A stretch of 34,699 nt of DNA from Gammaproteobacteria bacterium (lineage in GTDB: Bacteria; Pseudomonadota; Gammaproteobacteria; Ga0077536). The DNA lies in NCBI GenBank assembly GCA_020851775.1, contig JADZCB010000444.1, positions 1-34,699 on the forward strand, read 5' to 3'. Positions within the stretch are counted from its first letter, which is position 1. Each line of letters starts with the position of its first letter. The notes beneath the pieces are model-generated. The model saw nothing but the letters and a program-made list of their open reading frames with translations. It was not told the origin of the DNA and made no database searches. This document shows positions 1,196 through 33,042 of the stretch, piece by piece. Made by a program: the position numbers and the translations under genes.

Positions 1196-2827
1196 TCAGA
1201 TTCGTTCATCGTAGTCGCGCTTCTTGATGTGGCAAGCAATGACCGAGAAGGTATCTGCGGCCATCGATTGGCGGAGTGCATCGGCCAACTTCTCACGGGT
1301 GTTGACCTCAAACCCGACCCCACCCAGTGCTCGCGCCGCACCCGCGAAGTCGGTCGCTCCGAACTCCACTCCTAGATTTCGCATTCCCGAGCTACGCTGC
1401 TTGAGTTCAATCAGCGCCAGCGACTGATCGACGAAGACCACGCAAATGACACCGATCTTGCGGTCGCGCGCAGTTGCGAGTTCGCCGAGGACCATTTCGA
1501 ACCCGGCATCGCCGCTGAATGAGACAACCGGACGCTGCGGGCTCGCGAGCTTGGCGCCCATCGCCAGCGGCAGCGCGCAGCCCATCGTGCACAGACCCGT
1601 CGACTGCATCAGCCCGTGCGGCTCGATGCACTGCCACACCTGGCTCAGCAGGATGCGGTGTGCGCCGCTGTCGGCGCTGGCCAGTGTGTTGGCCGGCATC
1701 GTCCGGCGCACGGTGTCGACGATCGCGGCTGGCCCCCACGCCTCTGCGGCACGGAAGATCTTAGCCAGTGCCTGACGCTTCGCGTCGAGTTCTGCGGAAG
1801 TCCATGCGGATACGATCTGCTGTCCCGCGAACAACGCCGTCATCGTCTCGCCGACGTGCCCGACGAAGCTCAGCGGCGCCTGGTGCATGTAGTGCGTGTT
1901 AGGCACTGCCGTGACTTCGATGACGTGCGCGCCGGGAGGCCATGGGTCGCGCCAGCCGGTTCGCATCTCGATCGGGTCATAGCCTGCCAGGACGATTAGA
2001 TCGGCGTCTTGCAGTGTGCCGATCAGCACCTCGTCGGCACGCGGTGAGAGGCCAGCGCCGCCGAGCACCATCGGATCGCGCTCGTCGACGATCCCCTTGG
2101 CCTTGTAGGTCGTGATCAGCGGCAGGCGATGCGCCCTGACAAGGTCTGCCACCTGCGGCGCGCACTGCTGCGACAACACCTCGACACCGGCCAGAACCAC
2201 GGGCTTGCGGGCCTGTGCGATCCACTCGCGCGCCTGCGCGAACGCCGGCGAGGCTGCCGGCGCCATCGGCGCAGACCTGACGCGGCGCACCGGCGCCGTC
2301 ACCGGTTCGAGTGTACGCGCTACCGCGATCGGGATATCGATATGCACCGGGCCGGGTGGATCTTCGAGTGCGATCGCCACCGCCTTATCAATCATCACGT
2401 CGATCGCGCCGCTCGCGGCCGTGAACGTGGCCTTAACAATTGGTCCGAAGGCTGCGGCGTGGTCGAAGACCTGGTGCGTGTACGTGTAGGTTTCGGACGG
2501 ATCGACGCGCCCGGTCAGGAAGATCAGCGGCACTCGATCCTGCTGGGCGTTGGCAATGACGTTGAAGGCGTTGGCGGCGCCCGGCCCCACGGTTGCGATC
2601 AGGACACCTGGCGCGTGCGTGCGATGGTAGGTGCCTTCGGCCATGAAGCCGCCACAGTTCTCGTGCTTGACGAGCACGAAGTCGATGCCGACTTCGTCGA
2701 GTGCGTCCATCATCGTCAGCACTTCACCGCCCGGCATGCCGAACGCGTGCCGTACGCCGGCTTCCTTCAGGCGTCGTGCGATGACTTGGGCGGCATTGAG
2801 CGCAGGGCTGGTTTGCGAAGCCGACAT
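1196..2827 (-). CDS. Thiamine-pyrophosphate-dependent enzyme (acetolactate synthase/2-oxoacid decarboxylase family)
   Basis: MSASQTSPALNAAQVIARRLKEAGVRHAFGMPGGEVL...VKHENCGGFMAEG...GDAGFEMVLGELATA. N-terminal PYR domain with catalytic-type HE and C-terminal TPP-binding GDAGF motif. Start reassigned from ORF 3205 to ATG at 2827, giving an ATGA overlap with the upstream gene. Confidence 0.88.
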   Translation of the reverse strand: MSASQTSPALNAAQVIARRLKEAGVRHAFGMPGGEVLTMMDALDEVGIDFVLVKHENCGGFMAEGTYHRTHAPGVLIATVGPGAANAFNVIANAQQDRVPLIFLTGRVDPSETYTYTHQVFDHAAAFGPIVKATFTAASGAIDVMIDKAVAIALEDPPGPVHIDIPIAVARTLEPVTAPVRRVRSAPMAPAASPAFAQAREWIAQARKPVVLAGVEVLSQQCAPQVADLVRAHRLPLITTYKAKGIVDERDPMVLGGAGLSPRADEVLIGTLQDADLIVLAGYDPIEMRTGWRDPWPPGAHVIEVTAVPNTHYMHQAPLSFVGHVGETMTALFAGQQIVSAWTSAELDAKRQALAKIFRAAEAWGPAAIVDTVRRTMPANTLASADSGAHRILLSQVWQCIEPHGLMQSTGLCTMGCALPLAMGAKLASPQRPVVSFSGDAGFEMVLGELATARDRKIGVICVVFVDQSLALIELKQRSSGMRNLGVEFGATDFAGAARALGGVGFEVNTREKLADALRQSMAADTFSVIACHIKKRDYDERI

Positions 2828-4065
2828 CAGACGGCGCTCTTTGGTCTTGCAGCCGATGCCGCCCGGTCGGCGGGCGGCATCAGGTAGCCGTCGCGTGTTT
2901 GCGGCAGTTTGCGCCCGAGCAGGCTCGAGGCCACCTGGGTGCGCAAAATCTGTGCTGTACCGCCCGCAATCGTGAACATGCGCGCGTCGCGGACATGCCG
3001 CTCCAACGGCATTTCGCGGGCATAGCCCGAAGAGCCAAACATCTGCAACGCGTCGCTGGTGACCTTGTTCGCCGTCTCGGCGGCGAAGATCTTGGCCTGT
3101 GCGGCATGCAGGATGTCGGGGAAGCCCCCGTCCTCTGGGCTTGCGGCACGGTACAGCAGAAGGCGTGCTGCCTCCAGTTGAATCGACATGTCGGCCAGCA
3201 TCCATTGCAGGCCCTGGAACTCGGCGATCGGTCGTCCAAACTGCTCGCGCGCGTTCACGTAGGCTAACGCCTCGTCGAAGGCTCCCTGAGCGATGCCGAG
3301 CGCCACCGCGCCGGCACCGACGCGCTGTGCGTTGTAGGCTCGCATCAGGGAAGCAAACCCGCGCTTCGCTCCGCCTGGCGCGGTGAGCATCATCGACTTG
3401 TGAACCATCAGGTCATCGAAGTGAATGTGCGTCTCCGGGATGCCGCGCACACCCATCGCCAGCGTGCGGTCGGCGACCTGCATCGCGGCGGGATCGGAGG
3501 CGTCACGTCGAACCACGATAAAGCCCGCGATCCCCTGCTCTACTCCGCCATCGAACACGCGCGCAAACACCAGATGTAAACGTGAGACGCCGCCGCCGGT
3601 GATCCAGTACTTGTGTCCGTTAATGCGGTAATGATCACCCTGGCGGTCGGCCCGGGTGGTCATCTCGCTGGCCGCGCTGCCGGCATTCGGCTCGGAGATG
3701 CAGATCGCCGGCTTATCGCCTCCGAGCACACACTCGGCGGCGATCTTCTTCTGTTCGTCGGTGCCGTACGCCATCACTGCACCAATGGCTCCGAGGTTGG
3801 AGTCAACGGTGATGCGGCCCATCGTTGCGCAGGCCTGAGCCATCTCTTCGATCACAAGCACCGTATCCAGGTGACTGATGCCTTGGCCGCCGTACGCCTT
3901 CGGGATCATCATGCCCATGAAGCCGGCGTCGCGCAGCTTCGCGACGTTGTCCCAGGGGTAGGCCTCGGTCGCATCGGTACGCGCGGCTGTGGCTGCGAAT
4001 TCGCCTTGCGCCAGTTTGCGCGCGGCGGCTTTCAAAGCGGTCTGTTCAGGGGTTAATGGGAACAC
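2827..4065 (-). CDS. acd: Acyl-CoA-dehydrogenase-fold protein, probable 3-sulfinopropanoyl-CoA desulfinase
   Basis: GTG start at 4065 preceded by GAGGAG. VFPLTPEQTALKAAARKLAQGEF...ACATMGRITVDSNLGAIGAV...YNAQRVGAGAVALGIAQ...ERHVRDARMFTIAGGTAQILRTQVAS. Canonical catalytic Glu positions are Q247 and G368; Arg is at residue 84. Confidence 0.85.
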   Translation of the reverse strand: MFPLTPEQTALKAAARKLAQGEFAATAARTDATEAYPWDNVAKLRDAGFMGMMIPKAYGGQGISHLDTVLVIEEMAQACATMGRITVDSNLGAIGAVMAYGTDEQKKIAAECVLGGDKPAICISEPNAGSAASEMTTRADRQGDHYRINGHKYWITGGGVSRLHLVFARVFDGGVEQGIAGFIVVRRDASDPAAMQVADRTLAMGVRGIPETHIHFDDLMVHKSMMLTAPGGAKRGFASLMRAYNAQRVGAGAVALGIAQGAFDEALAYVNAREQFGRPIAEFQGLQWMLADMSIQLEAARLLLYRAASPEDGGFPDILHAAQAKIFAAETANKVTSDALQMFGSSGYAREMPLERHVRDARMFTIAGGTAQILRTQVASSLLGRKLPQTRDGYLMPPADRAASAARPKSAV

Positions 4066-4081
4066 GTTGCGTCTCCTCGGT

Positions 4082-5281
4082 TCAAGCGTCGGTAGTTCGG
4101 CTCGCGCGGCCCAGCCAGTCATGGAGTACCGCGTCGTGGTGTTCGTCCTGTCGGGGCGGTGGGTGGCGATAGGTGATGGGCGTTTCGGACAGTTTCAGCG
4201 GATTGGCCAACAGACTCACGGTGCCAGAGGCCGCGCCCGGGTAGGCAAGGGCCAGCTCGGCGCCGCGTGCACGCACGTGTGGGTCCGAGAACACCTGCTC
4301 GAGGTTGTTGACGGGACCGCAAGGCACGCCAATCGCTTCAAGCAGGGCGAGCCAGTCAGCACGTGGGCGTTTGGCCAGTTGCCGCTCAATCAGCTCGCAC
4401 AGATGTTCGCGGTGCTCGATGCGTGCGACGTTCGTGGTGTAGTGCGGGTCCGAGACGAGATGCGGCAAACCGACGCATTCGCAGAACTTGCGAAACTGGC
4501 CATCGTTTCCGACCGCGAGGATCATCGGCGCATCGGCCGTCGCGAACACCTGGTACGGTACGATGTTGGGATGGCCGTTCCCGAGCCGCGTGGGATTCTG
4601 CCGCGACATCAGATAGTTGGTGCCGGCATTGGCCAGCCAGGCGATCTGCGTATCCAGCAGCGAGATGTCGATCTGCTGGCCCTGCCCCGTGGCGTCCCGG
4701 TGGCGCAGCGCCGCCAGGATGCCGACGGTCGCATACATGCCGGTCATGATGTCGGCAATGCCGACGCCGACCTTCATCGGCAAGCCGGTGGGCTCGCCGG
4801 TCAAACTCATGATGCCGCCCATGCCCTGGATCAGAAAGTCGTAGCCGGCGCGGTGCGCATAGGGCCCGGTCTGGCCAAAGCCGGTAATCGAGCAGTACAC
4901 GAGCCGAGGGAAGCGTGCCCTCAACTGGGCATAGCCCAGACCGTACTTCGCCAGCCCGCCGACCTTGTAATTCTCGACCAGGATGTCGGCGTGTTCGAGC
5001 AGTTCGAGCACCAGAGCCACGCCGGCGGGCGTGGCGATATCGATATCGATCGAGCGCTTGTTGCGGTTGGCGCAGAGGTAGTAGGCACTCTCCTTGGTAG
5101 GACTACCGTCGTCTCCGGTCACGAATGGCGGGCCCCAGCGCCGCGTATCGTCGCCCTCGCCAGGCTTCTCGACCTTCACGATGTCCGCGCCAAGGTCGCC
5201 CAGCAGTTGTGTGGCAGTCGGGCCGGCGAGAATCCGCGACAGGTCGAGCACGCGCACGCCCGCGAGCGACATCGCAGTCAT
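4082..5281 (-). CDS. Class III CoA-transferase (CaiB/BaiF family)
   Basis: MTAMSLAGVRVLDLSRILAGPTATQLLGDLGADIVKVEKPGEGDDTRRWGPPF...GVGIADIMTGMYA. Typical family N-terminus and conserved Asp. Start overlaps the stop of the aminotransferase gene (ATGA at 5278-5281). Confidence 0.9.
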   Translation of the reverse strand: MTAMSLAGVRVLDLSRILAGPTATQLLGDLGADIVKVEKPGEGDDTRRWGPPFVTGDDGSPTKESAYYLCANRNKRSIDIDIATPAGVALVLELLEHADILVENYKVGGLAKYGLGYAQLRARFPRLVYCSITGFGQTGPYAHRAGYDFLIQGMGGIMSLTGEPTGLPMKVGVGIADIMTGMYATVGILAALRHRDATGQGQQIDISLLDTQIAWLANAGTNYLMSRQNPTRLGNGHPNIVPYQVFATADAPMILAVGNDGQFRKFCECVGLPHLVSDPHYTTNVARIEHREHLCELIERQLAKRPRADWLALLEAIGVPCGPVNNLEQVFSDPHVRARGAELALAYPGAASGTVSLLANPLKLSETPITYRHPPPRQDEHHDAVLHDWLGRASRTTDA

Positions 5282-6635: not shown

Positions 6636-7529
6636 TTGATCACTCTGAAGCAACTGGAGTTGCTGGTCGCCATGGCGGAGGCTCGCAGCATGTCCGCGGG
6701 AGGCACGCGGATCGGCATGAGCGCGTCAGCCACCAGCCACGCGTTGCGTGCCCTGGAAACCAACTTGGGCGTCATCGTCGTCGATCGACACGCCAAGAAT
6801 TTCGGCCTCACGGATGCCGGAAGTCGAGTGCTGCAACATGCGCTCGATGTCTTCACCTCGCTCAAGACTATCGAACAGGAAGGTAAGGCGGCCGCCGAGC
6901 TGAAAACGGGAGTGCTGCGCATCGGCTCGTTCGGCATCACCTCGTCGGTCCGCATCTTGCCGACGCTCATGGATCGGTTCCGCGCGCAGTATCCCGGCAT
7001 TGAGATCTGTATCGTCGAAGATCCCGATCAAGGCGTTGAGCAAGCGTTGGCCGAAGGTCGCGTAGACCTCGGGGTGGTGGTGCTTCCCAAACCGCAGTTC
7101 GACACGATTCTGTTGGCGGTCGACGAGTTGGTGGCTGTGCTGCCGGGCTCCAATCCGCTGGCTCGTTGCGAGCGCATCGAACTACGTGACCTCATCAAGT
7201 ATCCGTTCATCATGACCCAGGCCGGTTCGCAGGGGCTCGTGCGCAAGCTCTTCGATCGCTGCGGACTCGTACCGAGAATTACGCACGAACTCTCGCAGGT
7301 GTGGTCCATCCTCGACTTTGTGGGACGAGGTCAGGGCGTTTCCGTCGTCGCCTCGCTGGCCTTGCCAGATGGATTCCCCGGCGTCATTACGCGTCCCATC
7401 CTCCCGCGTTCTCAGCGCCGCATCGGCTTGGCGTGTCGCGACGAAACCCGCCTCGCACTGCAGGGGCGCGCATTCTGGCGGATGGCGCGCAGTGCTGTCG
7501 CAGCTCGGCAGCTTTCTGGTGGCAACTGA
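6636..7529 (+). CDS. LysR-family transcriptional regulator
   Basis: MITLKQLELLVAMAEARSMSAGGTRIGMSASATSHALRALETNLGVIVVDRHAKNFGLTDAG, a typical LysR wHTH, followed by an effector domain. Confidence 0.93.
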   Translation: MITLKQLELLVAMAEARSMSAGGTRIGMSASATSHALRALETNLGVIVVDRHAKNFGLTDAGSRVLQHALDVFTSLKTIEQEGKAAAELKTGVLRIGSFGITSSVRILPTLMDRFRAQYPGIEICIVEDPDQGVEQALAEGRVDLGVVVLPKPQFDTILLAVDELVAVLPGSNPLARCERIELRDLIKYPFIMTQAGSQGLVRKLFDRCGLVPRITHELSQVWSILDFVGRGQGVSVVASLALPDGFPGVITRPILPRSQRRIGLACRDETRLALQGRAFWRMARSAVAARQLSGGN

Positions 7530-7540
7530 TCAGCCATCGC

Positions 7541-8806
7541 TTAGCCCAATTGCGCGGACCGCCGGTCGACCACGACACGGCCTTTCTTGATCACCTTGGC
7601 CACACTGTTAGTGGCGAAGCGAAACACCGCCTGCTCGAATGACGGGACGTCGAGGATCACGATATCGGCCTGCTTGCCGGGCTCAAGCGAGCCGATGCGG
7701 TGGTCAAGACCGAGCGCTGCGGCCGCGTGGATGGTGGCTCCGCGCAGTGACTCTTCTGGCGTCATGCGGTTGATCCGGCAGCCCAGCGCGGCAGCCACCT
7801 GCATCGACTCGAGCCAGCACACCGGGCACTGGTCCGTCCCTAACGCAAGAGTGACGCCGCTGTCGCGCACCGCTTGCATGCTGGTTGGCGACGCATGATT
7901 GACAATGAAGTCGAAGCCGGGGAAAGTGACGGCCACCGTGCCCGCGTCGGCAAGCGCGCGGAAGTCGGCAGCGCTTGTGTGGTTCACATGGTCGCATGAG
8001 ACTGCGCCCATCTCGGCTGCCAGTCGCGTGCCGCCGATATTGTTTTTGGCATCGACGTGGAGTTTCAGCTTCAGTCCCAGATCGCTGGCGCCACGCAGCA
8101 CGCGCTCCGTATCCTTCACATCGAAGACATACGGGTCACAGTAGACATCGCAGAATTCAGCGAGACCTTCACTACTTACTTGCGGCAAGCCCTCGTTTAT
8201 GACTTCGTCGAGAAAACGCTCCTTCGTGGCGCCAGGCGGCAGCACATGCGCGCCGAGGTACGACGAGACGATCTCTACGGGCAGCAGTTCAGCAAGGCGT
8301 CGTGCAGCACGTAAGGACCGAATGTCGCTGGCAGGGTCGAGTCCATAGCCGCTCTTGGTTTCCAGCGTCGTCGTGCCCGCTTCTAACATGCGGCGCAGGC
8401 GCGGCAAAGATGCACTCACGAGTTCGTCCACCGAGAGCCCGCGGTTCGCCGCTATGGACGCCGGCACGTCGAACGGGATTCCCTCCGCGCGCAGGCCGGT
8501 GTCGTCCAGGCCTCGCATGCGTGCGAAGTATTCGCGGCTGCGGTTACCGGCGAAGATCAGGTGCGTGTGACAGTCCACGTAGCCTGGGATCACGGCCCCG
8601 CCGCTCGCGTCGAGTGGGTCGACGCGACGGTCCCCCAGCGCGGACATGACTTCGGCTTGAGTACCGACCGCAAGGATGGTCTCCCCGTCGATCGCAATCA
8701 AGCCGTTCTCGATCAACCCGACACCGTGAGTCCCTCCGCAGGTCACCACTTGCGCAGCCCCGGTGATCAGCGTCACCGGGGCGAGTGCATTTGCAGCGGA
8801 GTTCAT
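7541..8806 (-). CDS. Imidazolonepropionase-like (HutI-like) metal-dependent amidohydrolase
   Basis: VDCHTHLIFAGNRSREY, TTTLETKSGYGLDPASDIRSLRAARRL, LHVDAKNNIGG, LGTDQCPVCW and GSLEPGKQADIVILD motifs. Confidence 0.85.
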   Translation of the reverse strand: MNSAANALAPVTLITGAAQVVTCGGTHGVGLIENGLIAIDGETILAVGTQAEVMSALGDRRVDPLDASGGAVIPGYVDCHTHLIFAGNRSREYFARMRGLDDTGLRAEGIPFDVPASIAANRGLSVDELVSASLPRLRRMLEAGTTTLETKSGYGLDPASDIRSLRAARRLAELLPVEIVSSYLGAHVLPPGATKERFLDEVINEGLPQVSSEGLAEFCDVYCDPYVFDVKDTERVLRGASDLGLKLKLHVDAKNNIGGTRLAAEMGAVSCDHVNHTSAADFRALADAGTVAVTFPGFDFIVNHASPTSMQAVRDSGVTLALGTDQCPVCWLESMQVAAALGCRINRMTPEESLRGATIHAAAALGLDHRIGSLEPGKQADIVILDVPSFEQAVFRFATNSVAKVIKKGRVVVDRRSAQLG

Positions 8807-9420
8807 TCAGACACCTCTGGGTTCGTTGCCCCACTCCCGTGGTGCGACGGCAGGTCCGCCAGGCTCGAGCCACGTGACAACATATCTTCGACGACGCCGT
8901 CTTCAATGTCGATCATCAGCGCATCGTTGAATCGATTGAAGAATCCGCACAGAGCGGTGCGCAGCGTCAACTCCACGATCTGTTCCTCGCTGAAATGCTT
9001 TCGAAGGGCGGTGAAGACCTGGTCGCGGATACGCTGCGGATTGGTAGTCACCTGCACGGCGTAATCACGCACAAGCAGGTCGACCTCGTCGAATCCCGGT
9101 ACATCGGACTCGAGGATCCGCGCCACCGCAGCAGGCGAGAAGCCGTGATCTACCAAGCGTGGCGTGTGGTGACTCACGCAGTAGCTGCACTCGTTGACCT
9201 TGGAGACAACGACCAGCGCAATCTCCAGGTAACGTCTGGGCAGAATCTTCTCGTCGTACAGATCCAACAGCAAGCCCATGATGTGCTTGAGCGCTGGTGG
9301 TCGATGTGCGAACACCATCACCTGGTTCATGAATGGACCGTAGTCCTGCACGAACCGCTCGTAGATCGGTCGAACATCGACCGGTACTTCATCCACCTGA
9401 ACGTCTCTGACCCGTGCCAT
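8803..9420 (-). CDS. Carboxymuconolactone decarboxylase/AhpD-like protein
   Basis: VVSKVNECSYCVSHHTPRLVDHGFS contains the AhpD/CMD CxxC-x-HH type motif. Confidence 0.8.
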   Translation of the reverse strand: MARVRDVQVDEVPVDVRPIYERFVQDYGPFMNQVMVFAHRPPALKHIMGLLLDLYDEKILPRRYLEIALVVVSKVNECSYCVSHHTPRLVDHGFSPAAVARILESDVPGFDEVDLLVRDYAVQVTTNPQRIRDQVFTALRKHFSEEQIVELTLRTALCGFFNRFNDALMIDIEDGVVEDMLSRGSSLADLPSHHGSGATNPEVSE

Positions 9421-9455
9421 CTTGCTCCCTTCGGGGTCGTCCGCGCCGTGGTCGC

Positions 9456-10673
9456 TCAGCCCTTGCGTGTTGTGAGTACCACGTCCTTGCCGCCTTTGAT
9501 CTCGTAGAGTTGCACGTCGCGATCAACCGTCTGGCGATGGCTATCGAATTCCACAGGCGAACCGGCACCCGAGTAGTTGATTTCCTCGCCGGCGCGTATC
9601 GCCTTCAAGCCATCAAGCACGTTGTATACGGTCTTCTTGCCAGGCCCGGTCGAGACATCGACGATGGCCTTCTTGACCTTGTCGACATCGATGCTGCCTG
9701 CCTTCTGGATCGCCAACGCGAGCACGGAGATCTGATCGCGACAGAGGGTTCCATACGGATGTTGAATCTGGCCGTTGTCCTCGAGCCCCGCCTCGCGCAG
9801 GTACTGCTTATACGCAGGACTGTCCAATGGCGGGATCGGATAGCCGTGCAGGATTCCTTCCGCTGCGTCACCGACAGCGGCTTTGAAGGGAGCACTGGCG
9901 GCGAAAGTGACAGTGATGACACGGCCCTTGTACCCGGAACGATATATGTCCTTGTAGATCGCGGTGAAGTCGGTGACATACCCCGGAATGAAGACTGCGT
10001 CAGGATTTCCCTCTAGCAGATGCGAGACCTCGGATTTATACGAGGCTTGGTTGGCGTTGTAGTAGAACGGCTTTTCGAGCAGTCGGCCGGCGCCGACTGC
10101 GTCGACGAACCCGTCGAGTATGGATTTTGTGAAGTCGTTGTTTAGCGCCATTAGCTTGAAGCGCTTGTAGCCACGCTCGAGCGCAAGTTGCCCCAGAGCT
10201 CGGCCCCATACTGGATTCAGAATTTGAAAGTTGAACACAAGGCCCTTGGTGTCACGGAGCGGAATGTCGCTCGACGACGAGACACACATCTGGATCACGT
10301 TCGCGCTCTGGCACTTGGGCATGATTCCCAGGGTCACTGACGACGCCCAAGTGCCGAGAATCGCTATAACCTGATTCACGTTGATCAGTTTGTCGGCGGC
10401 GCGTGTCGCAGTCTCGGGATTGGTTTCGCCATCTTCCTGTGTCAGCTTGATCTGGCGATTCAGCACGCCACCCGCGGCGTTGATCTGGTCGACCGTGCGT
10501 TTGATGGCCGCGGCCATGTTCCCACCATAGGGCGCACCTCCACCGGTATTCGGTGTCAGAGATCCGATGTTTATCGGGTCACTCGCGTACGCGAAGCGTG
10601 GGACGAAGGCCGTGCCAAGCATGGCCGCAGTTGATCCGGTAACCACGCGACGGCGGGAAATCAGGGTTTGCAT
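9456..10673 (-). CDS. Branched-chain-amino-acid-type ABC transporter substrate-binding protein
   Basis: Tat-like leader MQTLISRRRVVTGSTAAMLGTAFVPRFAYA, then DPINIGSLTPNTGGGAPYGGNMAAAIKRTVDQINAAGGVLNRQIKLTQEDGETNPETA. Confidence 0.9.
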   Translation of the reverse strand: MQTLISRRRVVTGSTAAMLGTAFVPRFAYASDPINIGSLTPNTGGGAPYGGNMAAAIKRTVDQINAAGGVLNRQIKLTQEDGETNPETATRAADKLINVNQVIAILGTWASSVTLGIMPKCQSANVIQMCVSSSSDIPLRDTKGLVFNFQILNPVWGRALGQLALERGYKRFKLMALNNDFTKSILDGFVDAVGAGRLLEKPFYYNANQASYKSEVSHLLEGNPDAVFIPGYVTDFTAIYKDIYRSGYKGRVITVTFAASAPFKAAVGDAAEGILHGYPIPPLDSPAYKQYLREAGLEDNGQIQHPYGTLCRDQISVLALAIQKAGSIDVDKVKKAIVDVSTGPGKKTVYNVLDGLKAIRAGEEINYSGAGSPVEFDSHRQTVDRDVQLYEIKGGKDVVLTTRKG

Positions 10674-10718
10674 GATCTAGTCTCCTTCTGTAAGTGAGGA
10701 CGGGTAGGTGTGGCTTTG

Positions 10719-11630
10719 TCAAGAAGTCTTCTCGAACTCGGACATGAACTTGGGTTCAGGAATCAACCCACGCGGCCTAAAGCGCAGCACGGCCATCAGG
10801 ATGATTCCGATCAGGATGATGCGAATCGACGAGAGCTGCTGCGAGGTCACGATCGAGGTAAAGTCTCCGAGGAAACGCGAACCTTCGAGAATGAATATCA
10901 CGATGCCCGCACCCAGCAACAGCCCCTTGTTGTTGCCGTAACCGCCGACGATCACCGACATCCAGATAAAGATGGCAATCATCGGCATGAAGGTGTCGGG
11001 GCTGATGTTCTGGATGTAGTGAGCGAACAGCGCTCCAGCGACCCCCATGAAGACCGAGCCCAGGACGAATGCCTGAACGCGAAAGCGCAGCACGTTCTTG
11101 CCGAGTACGCCGGCCACCACGTCGTCTTCGCGGATCGCTCGGAGTGTGCGACCGTACGGGCCAGACCGAATCCGTTCGCAGATGGCATAGATCACCAGCA
11201 CGACCAGCGCCACGACGCCGAGATAGACAAGCGAGTAAACCGCGTTGCTTAGACCAAAGTCGAAGGGGCGCGCCGGAATTCTCAGCCCCCTGGGACCCTC
11301 GGTCAGCCAGTCTTCGTTGAGCGCGAAGAGCCGCACGATCTCGCCGAAGCCCAGGGTGACGATCGCGAAATAGTCTTCTCGCAGCCGCATAGTGAGAAGG
11401 CTGACGACGAGGCCTGCGACACCAGCGGCTACGCCGGCGAGTGCGATCGCGAGCTCTGGTGCGATTCCGATGCGGGTCGACAGAATCGCCCCACTGTATG
11501 CACCCAGTGCGTAGAAGCCGGCGACGCCGAAGTTCACCATCCCGGTCATGCCCCATTGCAGGTTGAGACCTTGCGCCAGAATCATGAAGAACCCGGCATA
11601 GGTGGCCATGGCGACGAAGTACGCAAGCAT
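10719..11630 (-). CDS. LIV-type ABC transporter permease (LivM-like)
   Basis: Hydrophobic protein with GMVNFGVAGFYALGAYSGA and YFAIVTLGFGEIVRLF motifs typical of LivM. Confidence 0.9.
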   Translation of the reverse strand: MLAYFVAMATYAGFFMILAQGLNLQWGMTGMVNFGVAGFYALGAYSGAILSTRIGIAPELAIALAGVAAGVAGLVVSLLTMRLREDYFAIVTLGFGEIVRLFALNEDWLTEGPRGLRIPARPFDFGLSNAVYSLVYLGVVALVVLVIYAICERIRSGPYGRTLRAIREDDVVAGVLGKNVLRFRVQAFVLGSVFMGVAGALFAHYIQNISPDTFMPMIAIFIWMSVIVGGYGNNKGLLLGAGIVIFILEGSRFLGDFTSIVTSQQLSSIRIILIGIILMAVLRFRPRGLIPEPKFMSEFEKTS

Positions 11631-11640
11631 CGGGCAACCC

Positions 11641-12504
11641 CTATTTCTTGATCTCGGGTTGGCCGAGTAGGCCGTACGGGCGCAGCAACAGCAAGATTGT
11701 GATCATCGCGAAGCCGACGCCGATCTTGTACGAGCTGGGCAGGATCAAAGTGGCGAACTCCTCGGCCAGCCCAACTAGAACCGCACCGAGCATCGCCCCG
11801 TACACTGAACCAATGCCGCCCAGAATGGCCGCCGCGATGATTGGAATGGTCAGGCCCCAACCGAGAAGCGGCTCTATCACTAGATCCAGCCCGGCTGAGA
11901 CACCGCTCAGCCCGAGTAGCGCTCCGCAGTAGAGCGTGACCATCACGCGAACCAGCACCGAGCGGATACCACGAACCTCGGCAAGTTGCGAGTTGTCGGC
12001 CATTGCGCGCATCGCCTTTCCGATGCGGGTGCGCGTCAGCAGAAAGTGAGTGACGATGACGACCAATAGCGACGCGCCCATCAGATAGAGTTGCGGACGC
12101 GTGATGTGCATCCCGCCAAAGACGAGTGGACGCTCAAGTGGCAGGTCGAAGCCCCTCACGTCGGCGCCGAAGACCAAGCGCACAGTGTGCTCAAGCACGA
12201 AAGTCAGTGCAATCGAAACCACGAGCAGCGTCACCGGTGAACTGGTGCGCATCGGCCGGAAGATGATCCGATCGCTGGCCCAGACGACGGCTGCACCCGC
12301 GAGCATGGCGGCAAGCGAGGCGGCCCAGAGCGGCAGGCCGAAAAGCACGTTGGCGGCGTACCCGGTGAAGACCCCGACCGTGATGTAGCCCCCGATCGCG
12401 AAGTTCGGGAAACGCAAGATGCCGAACAGCATCGAGAACGCGACCGCGGGAGGCGCGATCAAGGCGGCGGTGACGACGCCGTTGACAATCATCTGTCCCA
12501 TCAT
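11641..12504 (-). CDS. LIV-type ABC transporter permease (LivH-like)
   Basis: FSMLFGILRFPNFAIGGYITVGVFTGY...GAAILGGIGSVYGAMLGAVLVGLAEEF-type LivH signature (the read sequence is AAAILGGIGSVYGAMLGAVLVGL). Confidence 0.9.
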   Translation of the reverse strand: MMGQMIVNGVVTAALIAPPAVAFSMLFGILRFPNFAIGGYITVGVFTGYAANVLFGLPLWAASLAAMLAGAAVVWASDRIIFRPMRTSSPVTLLVVSIALTFVLEHTVRLVFGADVRGFDLPLERPLVFGGMHITRPQLYLMGASLLVVIVTHFLLTRTRIGKAMRAMADNSQLAEVRGIRSVLVRVMVTLYCGALLGLSGVSAGLDLVIEPLLGWGLTIPIIAAAILGGIGSVYGAMLGAVLVGLAEEFATLILPSSYKIGVGFAMITILLLLRPYGLLGQPEIKK

Positions 12505-13217
12505 GCTCGCGTACCCAGGTAAAGCTCCGCCACTTCCCGGTTGCTCAAGATCTCGGACGCGGGCCCCGTCATCGCAACCTGCCCCGCAGACATGACGGTG
12601 CCGAAGTTCGATATTTGCAAGGCCCGCATCGCGTTCTGCTCGACCATCAGAATCGCGATACCGCGCTCCCGGACTTCCCGGATCGCCTCGAACATTTGCT
12701 CCGCCATTGCGGGAGAGAGGCCCGCCGACGGCTCGTCGAGGAGCAGCAACTTCGGCTCGACCATGAGGGCCATGCCGAAGGCAACCATCTGGCGCTGCCC
12801 CCCGGAGAGGTTGCCGGCTCTTACCGTTCTGAGCTTGCGTAGCGCCGGGAAAAGCTCCAGCACGCTCTCCAGGCGTGGCTTGAACTTGCGCGGCTCGATC
12901 CAGGCGCCCATCTCGAGGTTCTCGAGCACACTCAGCGAACGGAAGACGTTGTGCTCTTGAGGCACATAGGCGATGGCATGGCGCGAAACCTCACTGGGTG
13001 GCAGGCCGCCGACATCGCGACCATTGATTAGGATCTTCCCGACCCGACGTTGAACGACACCAGCCAAGGTCTTAATGAAGGTTGACTTGCCAGCTCCGTT
13101 CGGCCCAATGATCGTCATAATGCTGCCGGACTCGACCGCAACGCTGACATCGCTGACGATGTCACCGCGGCCGTAGCCCGAATACACGCCCTCGGCGCGG
13201 AAGAAGACGTTAGACAT
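12501..13217 (-). CDS. LIV-type ABC transporter ATPase (LivF-like)
   Basis: Walker A GPNGAGKS, signature LSGGQRQM, Walker B LLLLDEPSAGLSP. Start set at MSNVFFRAEGVYSGYG (13217). Confidence 0.93.
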   Translation of the reverse strand: MSNVFFRAEGVYSGYGRGDIVSDVSVAVESGSIMTIIGPNGAGKSTFIKTLAGVVQRRVGKILINGRDVGGLPPSEVSRHAIAYVPQEHNVFRSLSVLENLEMGAWIEPRKFKPRLESVLELFPALRKLRTVRAGNLSGGQRQMVAFGMALMVEPKLLLLDEPSAGLSPAMAEQMFEAIREVRERGIAILMVEQNAMRALQISNFGTVMSAGQVAMTGPASEILSNREVAELYLGTRA

Positions 13218-14016
13218 GCGCCGCAGCCCTCCCGAGATAGGCTTCGATGACTGCGGGGTCTCTACGGATCTCATCGAACGACGCTTCCATCAGGTGCCGA
13301 CCTTCAGTCATCACGATGACCGGGTCGCACAGACGTGCAATGAAGTCCATGTCGTGTTCGATGATCAGGAACGTCTTCCCATACTCGGCGTTGAGCCGAC
13401 GAATCATTTCGGTGAGCAGTCCCATCAAGGCTGGGTTCACGCCGGCGCCGGGTTCGTCGAGCAGGATCACGGGGCAATCTGTCATTAGCGCGCGACCAAG
13501 CTCAAGCAGTTTCTTCTGCCCGCCTGACAGATTTGCCGCGTACTCGTTGCGCAAGGCCGTGAGGCGTGAGAGCGCAAGGACCTCCACCGCGCGCCGGTAA
13601 AGACCTTCTTGCTCGGCCCTCACCTTCGCCGGGCCGAAAAACAACGGCAGTAGTCGCTCGCCGCACTGGTTCTGCGGGGCGAGCAGCAGGTTCTCCAGTA
13701 CCGTGAGCGGGCCGAACTCCCGCGCGAGTTGGAAGCTGCGTACCATGCCGCGCTGTGCGCGCTCATGGGTGGGCAGCGCCGTAATGTTGTCACCGAACAG
13801 TTCGACGCGACCGGAGTCCGGACGGATCACGCCGCTCAACAGATGGAACAAAGTGGACTTTCCCGCCCCGTTGGGTCCGATCAGACCCGTGATCGATCCT
13901 TCTCGCAACGTGAGGCTCATGCCCGAGACGGCGCGCACACCGCCGAACGACTTCTGCAGAGCTTGGCCGCTGAGAACGATGCGCGGCGGACTCTTGGCTG
14001 TGGCACTAGCGTGCAT
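13210..14016 (-). CDS. LIV-type ABC transporter ATPase (LivG-like)
   Basis: Walker A GPNGAGKS, signature LSGGQKKL, Walker B VILLDEPGAGVNP. Confidence 0.93.
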   Translation of the reverse strand: MHASATAKSPPRIVLSGQALQKSFGGVRAVSGMSLTLREGSITGLIGPNGAGKSTLFHLLSGVIRPDSGRVELFGDNITALPTHERAQRGMVRSFQLAREFGPLTVLENLLLAPQNQCGERLLPLFFGPAKVRAEQEGLYRRAVEVLALSRLTALRNEYAANLSGGQKKLLELGRALMTDCPVILLDEPGAGVNPALMGLLTEMIRRLNAEYGKTFLIIEHDMDFIARLCDPVIVMTEGRHLMEASFDEIRRDPAVIEAYLGRAAAHV

Positions 14017-17175: not shown

Positions 17176-18309
17176 TCAGAAGCCGAGGAGCGTCGCCACG
17201 CGGTCGGCGTGCAGGTGCCGGTCGCCGAGGAGTGTCCCGGCCACGCGCGCGCGCTTCAGGTACAGGCCGACGTCGAGTTCGTCCGTCATGCCGATGCCAC
17301 CGTGCATCTGCACCGCCTCGTCGGTCGCCCGTTCGGCCGCGTCGCCGGCCTTGGCCTTGGCGACCGATGCGAACAGAGCAGCACGCGGGTCGCCGAGGTC
17401 GCGCAGGCGCGCCGCCTTCACGACCGTCGACTGCGCGAGCTCGATCTGGCCGTGCAGTTGCGCCGCGCGGTGCTGCAGCGCCTGAAAACTGCCGATCGCG
17501 TGGCCGAACTGGCGGCGCCGCTTGAGGTACGTCACGGTGCGCTCGAATGCCTCGCGCGCGATGCCGACGAGTTCGGCCGCGAGCGCGATGCGGCCGGCGT
17601 CGAGCACGTCGTCGATGATCGGCCCGGCGCCGTCGACCGGACCGATCGCGGTGTCGGTCGCGACGCGCACGCCGTCGAAGGTCACGCGAGCGGCGTTGCG
17701 GCTGTCGATCATGTCCTGGCGCCGGACCGAGACGCCCGGCCGATCGGCCTCGACAAGGAACAGGCTCAGTCCCGCAGCGTCGCCTGGCCTTCCCGACGTG
17801 CGCGCCAGCACAACGAACGCGTCGGCGACGTGCCCGTCGACGACGAGCGTCTTCTCGCCGCGCAGCACGTGAACCTCACCGCTGCGCTCGGCCGAGAGCG
17901 CGGTCGAGGCCGGGGCGTGGCGGCGCCCCTCGTCGACAGCCAGCGCCACGATCGCCTCTCCCTCCGCAATGCGAGGGAGCCAGCACCGCTGCGCGCTCGC
18001 CAGCGCCGAGCGCAACGCGGTCGCGCCCAGGACGGCGCTCGACAGGAACGGCGAGGTCGACAGGTGCCGTCCGAAGCTGGCGCACAACAGCCCTGCGCCG
18101 ACGTGACCGAACGCCGACCCGCCATGCGCTTCGTCGACGAGCACCCCGGCGTACCCCAGACGAGCCATCTCGTGCCAGACACCACGGTCGAAGCCGGTGT
18201 CGTCGCGCCCGTCGCGCAAGCGACGCAAATGCTTCGTCGACGCAAATCTCGCGAGGAAGTCGTCGGCACTGCGTGCCAGCATCACTTCGTCGTCGGTGTA
18301 GGCCAGCAT
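17176..18309 (-). CDS. Acyl-CoA dehydrogenase-like subunit (beta-type, no C-terminal catalytic Glu)
   Basis: MLAYTDDEVMLARSADDFLARF...MHGGIGMTDELDVGLYLKRARVAGTLLGDRHLHADRVA. Start trimmed to 18309 because the upstream ORF part overlaps the neighbouring gene. Confidence 0.88.
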   Translation of the reverse strand: MLAYTDDEVMLARSADDFLARFASTKHLRRLRDGRDDTGFDRGVWHEMARLGYAGVLVDEAHGGSAFGHVGAGLLCASFGRHLSTSPFLSSAVLGATALRSALASAQRCWLPRIAEGEAIVALAVDEGRRHAPASTALSAERSGEVHVLRGEKTLVVDGHVADAFVVLARTSGRPGDAAGLSLFLVEADRPGVSVRRQDMIDSRNAARVTFDGVRVATDTAIGPVDGAGPIIDDVLDAGRIALAAELVGIAREAFERTVTYLKRRRQFGHAIGSFQALQHRAAQLHGQIELAQSTVVKAARLRDLGDPRAALFASVAKAKAGDAAERATDEAVQMHGGIGMTDELDVGLYLKRARVAGTLLGDRHLHADRVATLLGF

Positions 18310-18320
18310 GGAGTCCCTTC

Positions 18321-19517
18321 TCACTCGGCCGGCAGGTCGAGCAGCCGCTTGGCGACGATGTTCAGCATCACCTCGGCCGTGCCACCCTCGATCGAGTTCG
18401 CCTTCGCGCGCAGCCACGCCGGCGCAACCTCGCCACCATCGCTGCGCACGAAGTCCCAGCGCAGGCCGTCGGCGCCGGACGCCTCCAGGATCAGCGTCTG
18501 GCGGCGCTGGTTCAGCTCGGCGTTGCAGTACTTCAGGATCGACGAGCGGTCGCCGATCTCGTGGCCGTGCGCGGCGTCCTCGACATAGCGCTCGATCGTC
18601 GCCGTCAAGGCGAGTGCGTCGATCTCGGCCCGCGCCACGCGATCGCGCAGGATCGGGTCGACGATGCGCCCTTTGGCGTCGCCGGCGAGCTCCTGCACCA
18701 CCTGCCATAGCGGCCGCCCGTCGTGCAGTCCGCGGGCGCGGCCGGCGATCATCTCGCGCTCCTGCGTCAGCAGGTACTTCGCGACCGTCCAGCCGCCGTT
18801 CTCGGCGCCGATCAGGTTCGCCTTCGGCACCTCGACGTTCTCGAAGAACGTCTCGCAAAACGGCGACTTGCCCGAGATCAGCTTGATCGGCCGGGTCGTG
18901 ACGCCTGGGGTGTGCATGTCGAACACGACGAACGAGAGGCCGCGGTGTTTCGGCGCTGTGGCATCCGTGCGCACGAGGCAGAAGATCCAGTCGGCCTGAT
19001 CGGCGTAGCTAGTCCAGATCTTCTGGCCGTTGACGACGTAGCGGTCGCCGCGGTCTTCCGCGCGTGTGCGCAGCGCCACCAGGTCGGAGCCAGCGTCCGG
19101 CTCGGAGTAGCCCTGGCACCAGCGGATCTCGCCGCGGGCGATCGGCGGCAGGTACCTTCGCTTCTGTTCGTCGGTGCCGAACTTCAGCAGCGCCGGGCCG
19201 AGCATCCAGATGCCGAAGCTCTCCAGCGGCGATCGTGCGCCGATGCGTTCCATCTCGTCGTCGAACACCTGGACCTGCGCCGACGACATCCCGGCACCGC
19301 CATAGGCGCGCGGCCAGCCGGGGACGGTCAGGCCTTCGGCGGCCGCGGCGTTGAGCCACTGGCGCTGCGCGTCGGACCTGAACGTCCAGCGCCTTCCGCC
19401 CCAGCAGATGTCGTCTTCGCCGTGTGCCGGCGAGCGCATCTCGGGCGGGCAGTGGCGCTCAAGCCAGGCGCGGATCTGCGCGCGGAACGTCTGCGGGTCG
19501 TCGGCGAACTCGGTCAT
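18321..19517 (-). CDS. Acyl-CoA dehydrogenase (catalytic-type subunit)
   Basis: MTEFADDPQTFRAQIRAWLERHCPPEM...GYSEPDAGSDLVALRTRAEDRGDRYVVNGQKIWTSYADQADWIFCLVRTD...AKANSIEGGTAEVMLNIVAKRLL. Start could be the upstream ATG at 19532. Confidence 0.92.
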   Translation of the reverse strand: MTEFADDPQTFRAQIRAWLERHCPPEMRSPAHGEDDICWGGRRWTFRSDAQRQWLNAAAAEGLTVPGWPRAYGGAGMSSAQVQVFDDEMERIGARSPLESFGIWMLGPALLKFGTDEQKRRYLPPIARGEIRWCQGYSEPDAGSDLVALRTRAEDRGDRYVVNGQKIWTSYADQADWIFCLVRTDATAPKHRGLSFVVFDMHTPGVTTRPIKLISGKSPFCETFFENVEVPKANLIGAENGGWTVAKYLLTQEREMIAGRARGLHDGRPLWQVVQELAGDAKGRIVDPILRDRVARAEIDALALTATIERYVEDAAHGHEIGDRSSILKYCNAELNQRRQTLILEASGADGLRWDFVRSDGGEVAPAWLRAKANSIEGGTAEVMLNIVAKRLLDLPAE

Positions 19518-19543
19518 CGAACCGTCCATCACTCCGGCCAGGC

Positions 19544-20152: not shown

Positions 20153-21754
20153 TCACGCCTCGCGGGCGATCTCGCGCAGCCGGGTCTTCAGGACCTTGCC
20201 GCTCGCATTGCGCGGCAGCTGGTCGACAAAACGGACGGCGCGTGGCACCTTGTAGTTCGCCATGCGCTCGCGCGCCCAGGCGATCAGCTCGGCTTCGGCA
20301 GGCGGCGCGCCACGCGCGACGACGAAGGCCAGGCCAACCTCGCCGAGGCGCTCGTCGGGCATGCCGATGACGGACACCTCGGCGATCGCCTCGTGCCGCA
20401 TCAGCATGTTCTCGATCTCCGCCGGGTAGGCGTTGAAGCCACCGACGATGTACATGTCCTTCAGACGACCGACGATGCTGAGATTGCCGCGCGCGTCCAG
20501 CGCACCCAGGTCGCCTGTCAGCAGCCAGCCGTCGGGGGTCAGCGTGCGTGCGGTCGCCTCCGGCTCCTCGAAGTAGGCGTCCATCACGTTGTAGCCGCGC
20601 ACCCGGATCTCGCCGGTCGTGCCGGCGGGTACCGGCGTTCCGTCCGGCCCAAAGATCGCGACCTCGACGCCCGGCACCGCACGGCCGCTGGTTTCGCACA
20701 GCGTCGTCGTACCGTCGCCCGGGCGGGTCATCGTCGCCAGGCCCGAGCATTCCGTCAGGCCGTACCCGGTCAGGATGGTCTCGAAGCCGAACTCGGTGCG
20801 GATGCGGTCGATCAGTGCGGGGGGCAGTGTGGTTGCGCCGGTGATGCAGATGCGCAGCGAGCGCAGGTCGAGGGTCGGCCGCTCGGGACGTGCCAGTAGC
20901 GCGAGGTAGATGGTCGGCGGGCCGGGCAGGATCGTGAGCCGCTCGCGGGCGACCAGCGAGAGCACCCGCTCGGGATCGAACACCGCCATCGGATAGATGG
21001 CGGCGCCGAACATCATCGACAGCAGCCAGCCGAGCTTGTAGCCGAGCGCGTGGAAGAACGGGTTGACGCCCAGCATGCGGTCGCCGGGCCGCAGCCCGCC
21101 GAGCGCGCCGAAGTCGTGGAAGGCGCGCAGGTTCTGCCCGTGGCGGCCGACGACGCCGCGCGGATGGCCGGTCGTTCCGGAGGTGAACATGATGTCGGAG
21201 ACGTCGTCGGGGCCGACGGCGAGGGTCAGCGCGGCGACGCGCCCGGGTGCGACCGTCGCGCCGTCCTCGAGCAGCCGGTCCCACGAACCGCCGCGCGCGA
21301 CCGGCACGTCGTCGAACGTGACGATGCCGACCGGGGCGTCGCCGCACGCCTGTTCGAGCATCGCCACGTAGTCTTGGTCGAGGAAGCGACCTTGCACGAA
21401 GGCGAGCTTCGGGTGCGCGCGGCCGACGATGTATCGCACCTCGTCGACACGGAAGCGGGTGTTCAGCGGCACGATCGCCGCGCCGACGCTCTGCGCCGCG
21501 ACCGCGGCGACGATCCACTTCCAGCTGTTCGGCGCCCAGATGGCGACGCGGTCACCGGGTTCGATGCCGCGCGCGACCAGCCCGCGCGCGGCTTGCAGCA
21601 CACGATCGGCGAGTTCGGCGTAGCTCAGCCAGTCCGCGCCGTCGACGACCGCCGGTGCCGCGCCGTGGCGGCGCGAGGCGTCCTCCAGCAGGTGGGGGAT
21701 GCTGCGCCAGGCGACTCCCGGCGGAGCCGTCTCCGCCGGTGAGGACGGCTTCAC
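20153..21754 (-). CDS. AMP-dependent acyl-CoA synthetase/ligase
   Basis: FTSGTTGHPRGVV (P-loop), GYGLTECSG, WLLTGDLGALD and LPRNASGKVLKT motifs. GTG start at 21754 overlaps the crotonase stop. Confidence 0.94.
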   Translation of the reverse strand: MKPSSPAETAPPGVAWRSIPHLLEDASRRHGAAPAVVDGADWLSYAELADRVLQAARGLVARGIEPGDRVAIWAPNSWKWIVAAVAAQSVGAAIVPLNTRFRVDEVRYIVGRAHPKLAFVQGRFLDQDYVAMLEQACGDAPVGIVTFDDVPVARGGSWDRLLEDGATVAPGRVAALTLAVGPDDVSDIMFTSGTTGHPRGVVGRHGQNLRAFHDFGALGGLRPGDRMLGVNPFFHALGYKLGWLLSMMFGAAIYPMAVFDPERVLSLVARERLTILPGPPTIYLALLARPERPTLDLRSLRICITGATTLPPALIDRIRTEFGFETILTGYGLTECSGLATMTRPGDGTTTLCETSGRAVPGVEVAIFGPDGTPVPAGTTGEIRVRGYNVMDAYFEEPEATARTLTPDGWLLTGDLGALDARGNLSIVGRLKDMYIVGGFNAYPAEIENMLMRHEAIAEVSVIGMPDERLGEVGLAFVVARGAPPAEAELIAWARERMANYKVPRAVRFVDQLPRNASGKVLKTRLREIAREA

Positions 21755-22671
21755 TCGCGGCCCCCTGCCGCCGCGCCGCCGGCAGCATGCAGCCTGACCA
21801 TGCCGTCGCCGAACGGCGCATCCCGGTTGCGCAACGCTTCCTTCAGACCGTGCTGTGCAAGGTCGGCGGCGAACTGCGCACGGCGCGGGCCGTTGGCGGT
21901 GTGCGAGCGTGCGTTCATCTCGACCGCCATGCGCTGCAGCGACCGCGCACCGGCGAGTTCCATGGCGACGTTGACGATGCGCTTCTGCGTCGTCAGCAGT
22001 TCGTGGTCGACGTGGGTCAGGCGCAGCGCAAGTTCGTCGACGACGTCGTCGAGCCGGTCTGCCGGCACCGCGTCCATCACGAGCCCGATGCGCGCGGCGT
22101 CGCGGCCCCAGACGCAGTCGCCACTCAGCAGCAGGCGCTTGGCCCACTGCGGACCTACGTGATAAAACCACATGTTATTCGGCGCCGTGCCGTTCGCGCG
22201 CGTGGCGGGGAATCCGATGCGCGCGTCGTCGGCGGCGACGACCAGGTCGCACATCAGCGCGAGGTCCGTGCCGCCGGCCAGGCAGTTCCCGTGGACCTTG
22301 CAGATGATCGGCTTGTGGACGTCGAACAGCACAGTCGTCAGCGCCTGCGTGCGTTCCAGCTGCCAGGCGTCGTCGTCGAGCGTGTCGCCGACCGAGCGGT
22401 AGCGGGCCCTCTCCGCCGTCGCCTCGGCCGAATCGCCGCCGCCGTAGACGTTGGAGAAGTCGTAGCCTGCGCAGAAGTCCTTGCCCGCCCCGTCGAGCAC
22501 GATGACATTGACGTCGACGAGATCGTCGGCCTCGAGCATCGCGTCGTGCAGCTCGCGCATCATCGGCTCGTGCAGCGCGTTGCGCTTGGCCGGGCGGTTC
22601 AGCGTGATGCGGGCGATCTTGTCGCGTACCGCGAACGCGATGTGTTCCGCCGAGCGGATCCACTTGGCCAT
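21751..22671 (-). CDS. Enoyl-CoA hydratase/isomerase (crotonase) superfamily protein
   Basis: ITLNRPAKRNALHEPMMRELHDAMLEAD...GKDFCAGYDFSNVYG...HGNCLAGGTDLALMCDLVVAADDARIGFP. Confidence 0.9.
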   Translation of the reverse strand: MAKWIRSAEHIAFAVRDKIARITLNRPAKRNALHEPMMRELHDAMLEADDLVDVNVIVLDGAGKDFCAGYDFSNVYGGGDSAEATAERARYRSVGDTLDDDAWQLERTQALTTVLFDVHKPIICKVHGNCLAGGTDLALMCDLVVAADDARIGFPATRANGTAPNNMWFYHVGPQWAKRLLLSGDCVWGRDAARIGLVMDAVPADRLDDVVDELALRLTHVDHELLTTQKRIVNVAMELAGARSLQRMAVEMNARSHTANGPRRAQFAADLAQHGLKEALRNRDAPFGDGMVRLHAAGGAAAGGRE

Positions 22672-29596: not shown

Positions 29597-30859
29597 ATGG
29601 GGTTCACGATCGCAGAGAAGATCCTGGCTCGCGCGGCCGGCAGGCCCGGCGTGCGCGCCGGCGATGAGATCCGGGCCAAGCCCGACTTCGTGGTCGCGTA
29701 CGACTTTCCCGGTTACACCGACGTGATCTTCCGCCAGATGCAGGACGAGTTCGGCATCGAGCGCGTGAAGGAGCCGGACCGCTTCGTCCTCTTCATCGAC
29801 CACATGGTCCCGGCAGTGACGCCACAAGAAGAGGATCTGCACCAGAACACGCGCGACTGGGGCGCGAAGAACGGCGTGCCGGTGCACGAGCGCAAGGGCA
29901 TCGGCCACCAGGTCGCCTCCGAACTCGGCTACGCGGTACCGGGCGCGTTCGTCGTCCACTTCGACGGCCACATCTCACAGCTCGGCACCTTCGGCACGCT
30001 GGCGATCGGCGTGCGGCGCCATCTGCTCGAGGCCTTCGTCAAGGACAGCATCCTGCTGAAGGTGCCGCAGACGACGCGCGTCGAGATCGTCGGCACGCCG
30101 CCGCCCGGCGTGATGGCGCGCGACGTGTTCCACCACATCGTGCGCGTGCTGGGGCCGTCAGCGTGCCGGTTCCAGGTGCTGGAGCTCGGCGGAGAGACCA
30201 TCTCCCGCTTCGGCATCGACTCGCGCCAGACGCTCACCGGGCTGGCGATGTTCACCGGCGCGATCACCGCGATCATCAACCCGGACGAGCTCACGCTCGC
30301 CTACGCCCGGCCGCGCGCCAGGAAGTCGATCGAACCGGTCGCCTCGGACGCCGACGCCGTCTACGCGGCGCGCCACACGATCGACGTCACGGACCTGGAG
30401 CCGATCGTCGTCGTGCCGCCGAGCCCGGCCAACACGCGCAACCTCACTGACTACCTCGGCACCGAAGTGCAGGTGGGGTACCTCGGCTCGTGCGCGTCCG
30501 GTCGCATCGAGGACCTGCGTGCCGCCGCGCAGGTGCTGAAGGGCCGCGAGGTGCGGCCGGGCTTCCAACTGCACGTCGTGCCGACGAGCCAGGACATCAT
30601 GCGCCAGGCATCGGAACAAGGCATCCTGACCGACCTGATCGCCGCGGGCGCCTTCGTCACGTCGCCGTCGTGCGACTACTGTTTCGGCCGGCTTGGCGTG
30701 ATGACGGCCGGCCAGCGCGCGGTGTCCACCGGCACGCTGAACGTGCGCGGCCGCATGGGCAGCCCGGACTCGGAGATCTACATTGTCAACGCCGCCGCGG
30801 TCGCCGCCGCGGCGATCGAGGGTCGGATCGCCGATCCGCGCCGCTACCTCGGAGGCTGA
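29597..30859 (+). CDS. Aconitase/3-isopropylmalate-dehydratase-family large subunit (LeuC/DmdA-like)
   Basis: MGFTIAEKILARAAGRPGVRAGDEIRAKPDFVVAYDFPGYTD...GSCASGRIEDLRAAAQVLKGR...SPSCDYCFGRLG, with Fe-S ligand Cys motifs conserved. Confidence 0.9.
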   Translation: MGFTIAEKILARAAGRPGVRAGDEIRAKPDFVVAYDFPGYTDVIFRQMQDEFGIERVKEPDRFVLFIDHMVPAVTPQEEDLHQNTRDWGAKNGVPVHERKGIGHQVASELGYAVPGAFVVHFDGHISQLGTFGTLAIGVRRHLLEAFVKDSILLKVPQTTRVEIVGTPPPGVMARDVFHHIVRVLGPSACRFQVLELGGETISRFGIDSRQTLTGLAMFTGAITAIINPDELTLAYARPRARKSIEPVASDADAVYAARHTIDVTDLEPIVVVPPSPANTRNLTDYLGTEVQVGYLGSCASGRIEDLRAAAQVLKGREVRPGFQLHVVPTSQDIMRQASEQGILTDLIAAGAFVTSPSCDYCFGRLGVMTAGQRAVSTGTLNVRGRMGSPDSEIYIVNAAAVAAAAIEGRIADPRRYLGG

Positions 30860-30863
30860 AGCC

Positions 30864-32745: not shown

Positions 32746-32770
32746 CTGCGGAGGGATTGCCGGGAGGGCG

Positions 32771-33034: not shown

Positions 33035-33042
33035 CTGTGAGC

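Follow-up and report, generated by a model that had tools for sequence, protein, structure and literature searches.

A probable 3-sulfinopropanoyl-CoA desulfinase gene in an operon with aminotransferase and ThDP-enzyme genes: a hint of a sulfur amino acid pathway not yet described

The window analysed here is the whole 34,699-nucleotide stretch of contig JADZCB010000444.1 (assembly GCA_020851775.1) from a gammaproteobacterium of the lineage Ga0077536. It carries an operon ordered aspartate-type aminotransferase, class III CoA-transferase, desulfinase and ThDP-dependent enzyme, whose genes overlap or nearly touch: the aminotransferase stop overlaps the ATG of the CoA-transferase gene (ATGA), 16 nt lie between the CoA-transferase gene and the desulfinase start, and the desulfinase stop overlaps the ATG of the ThDP gene (TGATG, 2829-2825). 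The features are as follows.

1196..2827, minus strand: ThDP-dependent enzyme with acetolactate-synthase fold, 543 aa, a putative 2-oxo-acid decarboxylase or oxidative decarboxylase
2827..4065, minus strand: predicted 3-sulfinopropanoyl-CoA desulfinase (Acd), 412 aa, GTG start, R84/Q247/G368
4073..4078, minus strand: ribosome-binding site GAGGAG of the desulfinase gene, 7 nt before the GTG
4082..5281, minus strand: class III (CaiB/BaiF) CoA-transferase, the proposed succinyl-CoA:3-sulfinopropanoate CoA-transferase and Act counterpart, in the same order as act/acdA of Variovorax paradoxus (PMC6370202)
5278..6510, minus strand: aspartate-type aminotransferase; closest solved structures are aspartate aminotransferases A and B, 6f77 and 6f35
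6636..7529, plus strand: divergent LysR-type regulator, 46-52% identical to LysR genes at other desulfinase loci

Behind the LysR gene, the minus strand at 7541-14016 encodes an imidazolonepropionase-type amidohydrolase, an AhpD-like protein and the full set of components of a branched-chain-type ABC transporter. Advenella mimigardefordensis DPN7 likewise has an AhpD-core gene in the vicinity of acd (PMC5373536).

The initial annotation had read the gene at 2827-4065 as a desulfinase translated from a GTG at 4065 behind a good ribosome-binding site. This start was borne out, as GAGGAG at 4078-4073 precedes it with 7-nt spacing and 412 residues follow. An alternative 431-aa ORF from an upstream ATG is also present in this frame, and appears less likely because the GTG start coincides with the chain start of the DPN7 enzyme. 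The closest PDB chain is the DPN7 desulfinase itself (5af7), with 644 bits against 250 bits for the second-best chain, and pairwise comparison with DPN7 Acd gives 293 identical residues out of 394 (74%). Moreover, the protein scores 641.6 bits with NF042439, the NCBIfam equivalog '3-sulfinopropanoyl-CoA desulfinase', above its cut-off of 600, while none of the other NCBIfam acyl-CoA dehydrogenase models attains its own cut-off with it. The expectation that automatic annotation would yield a generic acyl-CoA dehydrogenase is contradicted, since this equivalog exists and is passed; naming the protein only as a generic dehydrogenase was ruled out on the same score.

Arg84, Gln247 and Gly368, which the initial annotation had singled out, were all confirmed in the alignment at the positions claimed. 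In the DPN7 desulfinase we take the signature to be Gln246, Gly366 and a key Arg84, the last presumably with a catalytic role. When aligned with 5af7/5ahs, Arg84 coincides with DPN7 position 84, and Gln247 and Gly368 correspond to DPN7 246 and 366, the window sequence being longer by one residue ahead of Gln247 and by another ahead of Gly368. Gln247 and Gly368 occupy what we take to be the two positions where acyl-CoA dehydrogenases carry the catalytic Glu. A Glu or Asp at either of them was looked for as evidence against a desulfinase and was not found in the window protein. The residues were further compared among 85 desulfinase-type sequences, comprising 80 from desulfinase loci, 4 from a survey of ThDP genomes and the window protein; all three are invariant in every one of them (85/85, that is, 84 homologues and the window). 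The set is absent from all 11 acyl-CoA dehydrogenase paralogues encoded in this genome; Glu is present at the 247 position in seven of them and at the 368 position in four. The occurrence of the three signature residues in the window protein is far beyond chance.

A superfamily tree was run as a quick ML tree, which places the window protein together with DPN7 in a clade of 30 rows (support 96), and not among bona fide dehydrogenases; all 11 own-genome paralogues lie outside the 86-row desulfinase clade. The same data bear on the alternative of an ordinary acyl-CoA dehydrogenase with a relocated catalytic base. Such an enzyme would have the identical fold and superfamily, and the base can indeed move, as isovaleryl-CoA dehydrogenases show (PMC8360864). 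However, Gln and Gly occupy both known base positions, a characterised desulfinase is 74% identical, the equivalog cut-off is passed, and the tree separates the protein from all dehydrogenases of its own genome, which makes this alternative very improbable. Judged from sequence, the desulfinase reading is supported by the 5af7 match, NF042439, the residues and the tree, and the gene very probably encodes a 3-sulfinopropanoyl-CoA desulfinase, another member of an already known family that NCBI's own model can name. Such an enzyme would keep the acyl-CoA dehydrogenase fold without the catalytic Glu and, instead of oxidising its substrate, would break 3-sulfinopropanoyl-CoA at its C-S bond into propanoyl-CoA and sulfite. 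The DPN7 desulfinase reportedly catalyses this conversion of 3-sulfinopropanoyl-CoA to propanoyl-CoA and sulfite and is devoid of dehydrogenase activity.

The neighbouring CoA-transferase groups with a clade of CoA-transferases found beside Burkholderiales desulfinases. The ThDP enzyme matches no NCBIfam cut-off shown, its best score being 333.5 bits with PRK08322, the acetolactate synthase equivalog, which needs 509. According to its predicted model it has the same fold as acetolactate synthases (4rji, 1ozf; TM-score about 0.88), and it likewise has the catalytic Glu56, HQ at 118-119 and Lys132, whereas it is 29% identical to them, carries GDA in place of GDG, and has its own invariant set GYDPxEMR, DxGAHRIL and SLxLIExKQ. 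A structure search with this model returned acetolactate-synthase family matches only and no hint of the substrate. The subfamily occurs in 14 of 398 genomes of the phylum, and only 4 of the 13 others also have a desulfinase, which rules out that the family is specific to desulfinase genomes. In several genomes the ThDP gene and the same CoA-transferase family precede genes for a TPR protein, OpgC, OpgG and OpgH, a periplasmic-glucan operon. This arrangement, with the class III CoA-transferase gene before those for the TPR protein and OpgC, is seen at loci L108-L110 and L113-L116 (e.g., L113:8325-17368), several of which also have OpgG and OpgH; the ThDP and CoA-transferase genes there are possibly an unrecognised acyl-donor module of osmoregulated periplasmic glucan operons. 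Some 80 invariant columns of the ThDP family are common to the desulfinase and glucan contexts. Because the enzyme occurs in glucan operons with these shared residues, it may help to make a thioester resembling succinyl-CoA that has several fates.

Several further gene families were observed around these loci. A TPR-containing family of 450-470 aa is encoded repeatedly next to the desulfinase as well as next to the ThDP enzyme (L058:11198-12598, L113:11338-12702, L132-L134, L136); Pfam reports only TPR repeats, and in our impression the protein resembles human TTC38. Metabolite associations of human TTC38 were considered as a clue and dropped, as the metabolites carry no identification. A YeeE/YedE-type sulfur transporter gene (PF04143) is close to the ThDP gene in L111, L112, L116 and L117, and L112 and L116 encode an additional protein family of 157-186 aa without a Pfam match.

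Among 80 desulfinase loci, the CoA-transferase is present in 29 and the ThDP gene in 21, where it immediately follows the desulfinase gene on the same strand in 20 cases. The 3-mercaptopropionate dioxygenase, whose identity in the loci is based on solved structures, is found in 12, and no locus has both the dioxygenase and the ThDP gene (Fisher p = 0.019); because the loci are related and the ThDP loci mostly belong to other clades than the dioxygenase loci, this avoidance is descriptive and does not amount to a strong test. Whole-genome searches found a copy at 63% or better in 6/6 dioxygenase-type control genomes. In the 21 ThDP-type genomes, many of them drafts, 14 had no dioxygenase match at E 1e-10, in six the matches were confined to weak cupins (37% or less), and Achromobacter had a 62% dioxygenase copy elsewhere. 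As for the window, the cluster contains no 3-mercaptopropionate dioxygenase (Mdo), and neither PF05995 nor the Mdo protein as query detected one in the draft genome, while the six positive-control genomes matched. The gene could be missing from the assembly, a 453-contig draft with 90.6% completeness.

The families of the aspartate-type aminotransferase, CoA-transferase, desulfinase and ThDP enzyme recur with 57-73% identity, contiguously in Streptomyces coffeae (L034) and split in Achromobacter kerstersii (L032). Both also have the LysR gene as in the window, whereas in A. kerstersii the genes form two groups with TctC and M20-peptidase genes and the dioxygenase lies elsewhere in the genome. 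In addition, L071 has a divergent aspartate-transaminase-like gene behind the ThDP gene, along with the CoA-transferase and desulfinase genes. Denitrobaculum tricleocarpae (L042) is among the bearers of a desulfinase plus a ThDP gene. A second aminotransferase-like gene at Burkholderiales loci was ruled out as an equivalent of the one in the window, as it encodes a PatB-type C-S lyase. This PatB-family protein (416 bits, cut-off 340) is accompanied by an amino-acid-permease-like gene at L016, L017, L018, L026, L028 and L060 (e.g., L017:7278-8504), and all of these but L026 also contain the 3-mercaptopropionate dioxygenase gene. Such loci would fit the degradation of S-(2-carboxyethyl)cysteine, an amino acid abundant in legumes (PMC9414067), via 3-mercaptopropionate.

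The desulfinase was found in none of eight congeners and in 5 of 35 other members of the order, where it is only 62-64% identical and adjoins the TPR gene in four of the five. The G+C content at 4-12 kb is 60-63% compared with about 67% in other contigs, and genes at 17.2-19.3 kb match relatives within the family. The cassette was probably acquired horizontally; a misassembly is conceivable. Elsewhere in the window, the minus strand at 17176-19532 encodes an acyl-CoA dehydrogenase pair, conserved in the family, that resembles the small and large subunits of pimeloyl-CoA dehydrogenase, accompanied by acyl-CoA ligase (20153-21757), enoyl-CoA hydratase and CoA-transferase genes. On the plus strand at 29597-32265, isopropylmalate-dehydratase-type large and small subunits are followed by a methylisocitrate-lyase-type protein, none of which passes its cut-off, and then by an HMG-CoA-lyase-type gene (32563-33948).

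That the desulfinase is encoded beside an aminotransferase and a ThDP enzyme, in place of the usual thiol dioxygenase, may point to a route, not described so far, that starts from a sulfur amino acid. The side chains handled by aspartate-type aminotransferases are acidic, and to these enzymes a sulfinate is an analogue of a carboxylate. The aminotransferase could thus convert homocysteine sulfinate, the sulfinic glutamate analogue, to 4-sulfino-2-oxobutyrate, from which the ThDP step would form 3-sulfinopropanoate, the succinate analogue, by decarboxylation plus oxidation, the latter either via a separate aldehyde dehydrogenase or in an oxidative ThDP reaction. The CoA-transferase encoded just upstream of the desulfinase would most likely then form the CoA ester from 3-sulfinopropanoate and succinyl-CoA. 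The propanoyl-CoA released could enter metabolism through methylmalonyl-CoA mutase, a family present in this genome, and the sulfite may be oxidised by the one molybdopterin sulfite-oxidase-type protein, assigned by family. Homocysteine sulfinate is accepted by bacterial glutamate decarboxylase, and a GABA-transaminase/succinic-semialdehyde-dehydrogenase pair converts homohypotaurine to 3-sulfinopropanoate, so a sulfinate can stand in for a carboxylate (PMC11396700). No bacterial degradation route of this kind for homocysteine sulfinate was found in the literature searched. Cysteine sulfinate was ruled out as the substrate on chemistry, because 3-sulfinopyruvate spontaneously loses sulfite and its decarboxylation would yield a C2 sulfinate. 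The oxidation is the weakest link of the homocysteine sulfinate route, as it needs one or the other of these oxidations and no dehydrogenase gene is linked. The cassette encodes no aldehyde dehydrogenase, and the candidates of 470-500 aa encoded in the neighbourhood of ThDP or desulfinase genes proved to be Mur ligase, AAA ATPase, TctA or malonyl-CoA decarboxylase.

We therefore hold it as a tentative proposal that the aminotransferase and the new ThDP subfamily make 3-sulfinopropanoate from homocysteine sulfinate independently of a dioxygenase, and that the CoA-transferase and desulfinase complete the route. Its support lies in the tightly packed operon, the 20 of 80 loci in which the ThDP gene immediately follows the desulfinase gene, the four-gene recurrence in L032, L034 and (divergent) L071, the 12 dioxygenase loci that all lack the ThDP gene, the failure to detect a dioxygenase in the draft genome, and the sulfinate-for-carboxylate substitution in the homohypotaurine reaction, while the occurrence of the ThDP family without a desulfinase weakens it. 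A serious contender, which we rate as plausible though short of probable, is that the desulfinase operates in the manner of DPN7 and TBEA6, the 3-sulfinopropanoate being derived from 3-mercaptopropionate or taken up from outside the cell, with the aminotransferase and ThDP enzyme doing something else. The desulfinase and CoA-transferase do group with dioxygenase-linked loci, a contig with the dioxygenase may be missing from the draft, and import of 3-sulfinopropanoate itself requires no dioxygenase; however, the tight overlap of the aminotransferase and ThDP genes in the operon, the same four genes in L034 (contiguous) and L032 (split), and the failure to find a dioxygenase in the draft genome speak against it. 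It is also conceivable, if rather unlikely, that the ThDP enzyme and CoA-transferase convert a substrate other than homocysteine sulfinate and produce, from a different acid, a thioester resembling succinyl-CoA, which OpgC loads onto glucans in some bacteria and the desulfinase degrades in others. The association with TPR protein, OpgC, OpgG and OpgH genes, the roughly 80 columns kept across both contexts as if for one reaction, and the TPR family that adjoins the desulfinase even without a ThDP gene point this way, whereas the aspartate-type aminotransferase is seen in the desulfinase context only, and the link to OpgC consists of gene order.

By its sequence, the window protein clearly belongs to a family whose characterised members come from only a few betaproteobacteria. 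If the proposed reading of the operon is true, the desulfinase would be the common last step of at least two entries, one by thiol oxidation with a dioxygenase and the other by transamination and ThDP chemistry on a ready-made sulfinate. Organic sulfinates would then be linked to propanoyl-CoA and sulfite without a dioxygenase, through a pathway that breaks down a sulfinic amino acid, and a recurrent ThDP subfamily would gain a directly testable function.

Compared with DPN7 Acd (5af7, 5ahs), the window desulfinase combines 74% identity with the three signature residues and the same length and start. The DPN7 locus likewise has class III CoA-transferase and LysR neighbours with an AhpD-type gene nearby, whereas its acd adjoins the Mdo dioxygenase gene and methylcitrate genes, in contrast to the aminotransferase and ThDP enzyme of the window, in whose genome no Mdo was found. 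In V. paradoxus TBEA6, act adjoins acdA as the corresponding genes do in the window, but that cluster includes mdo and enoyl-CoA hydratases for thiodipropionate, all of which are absent from the window operon (PMC6370202).
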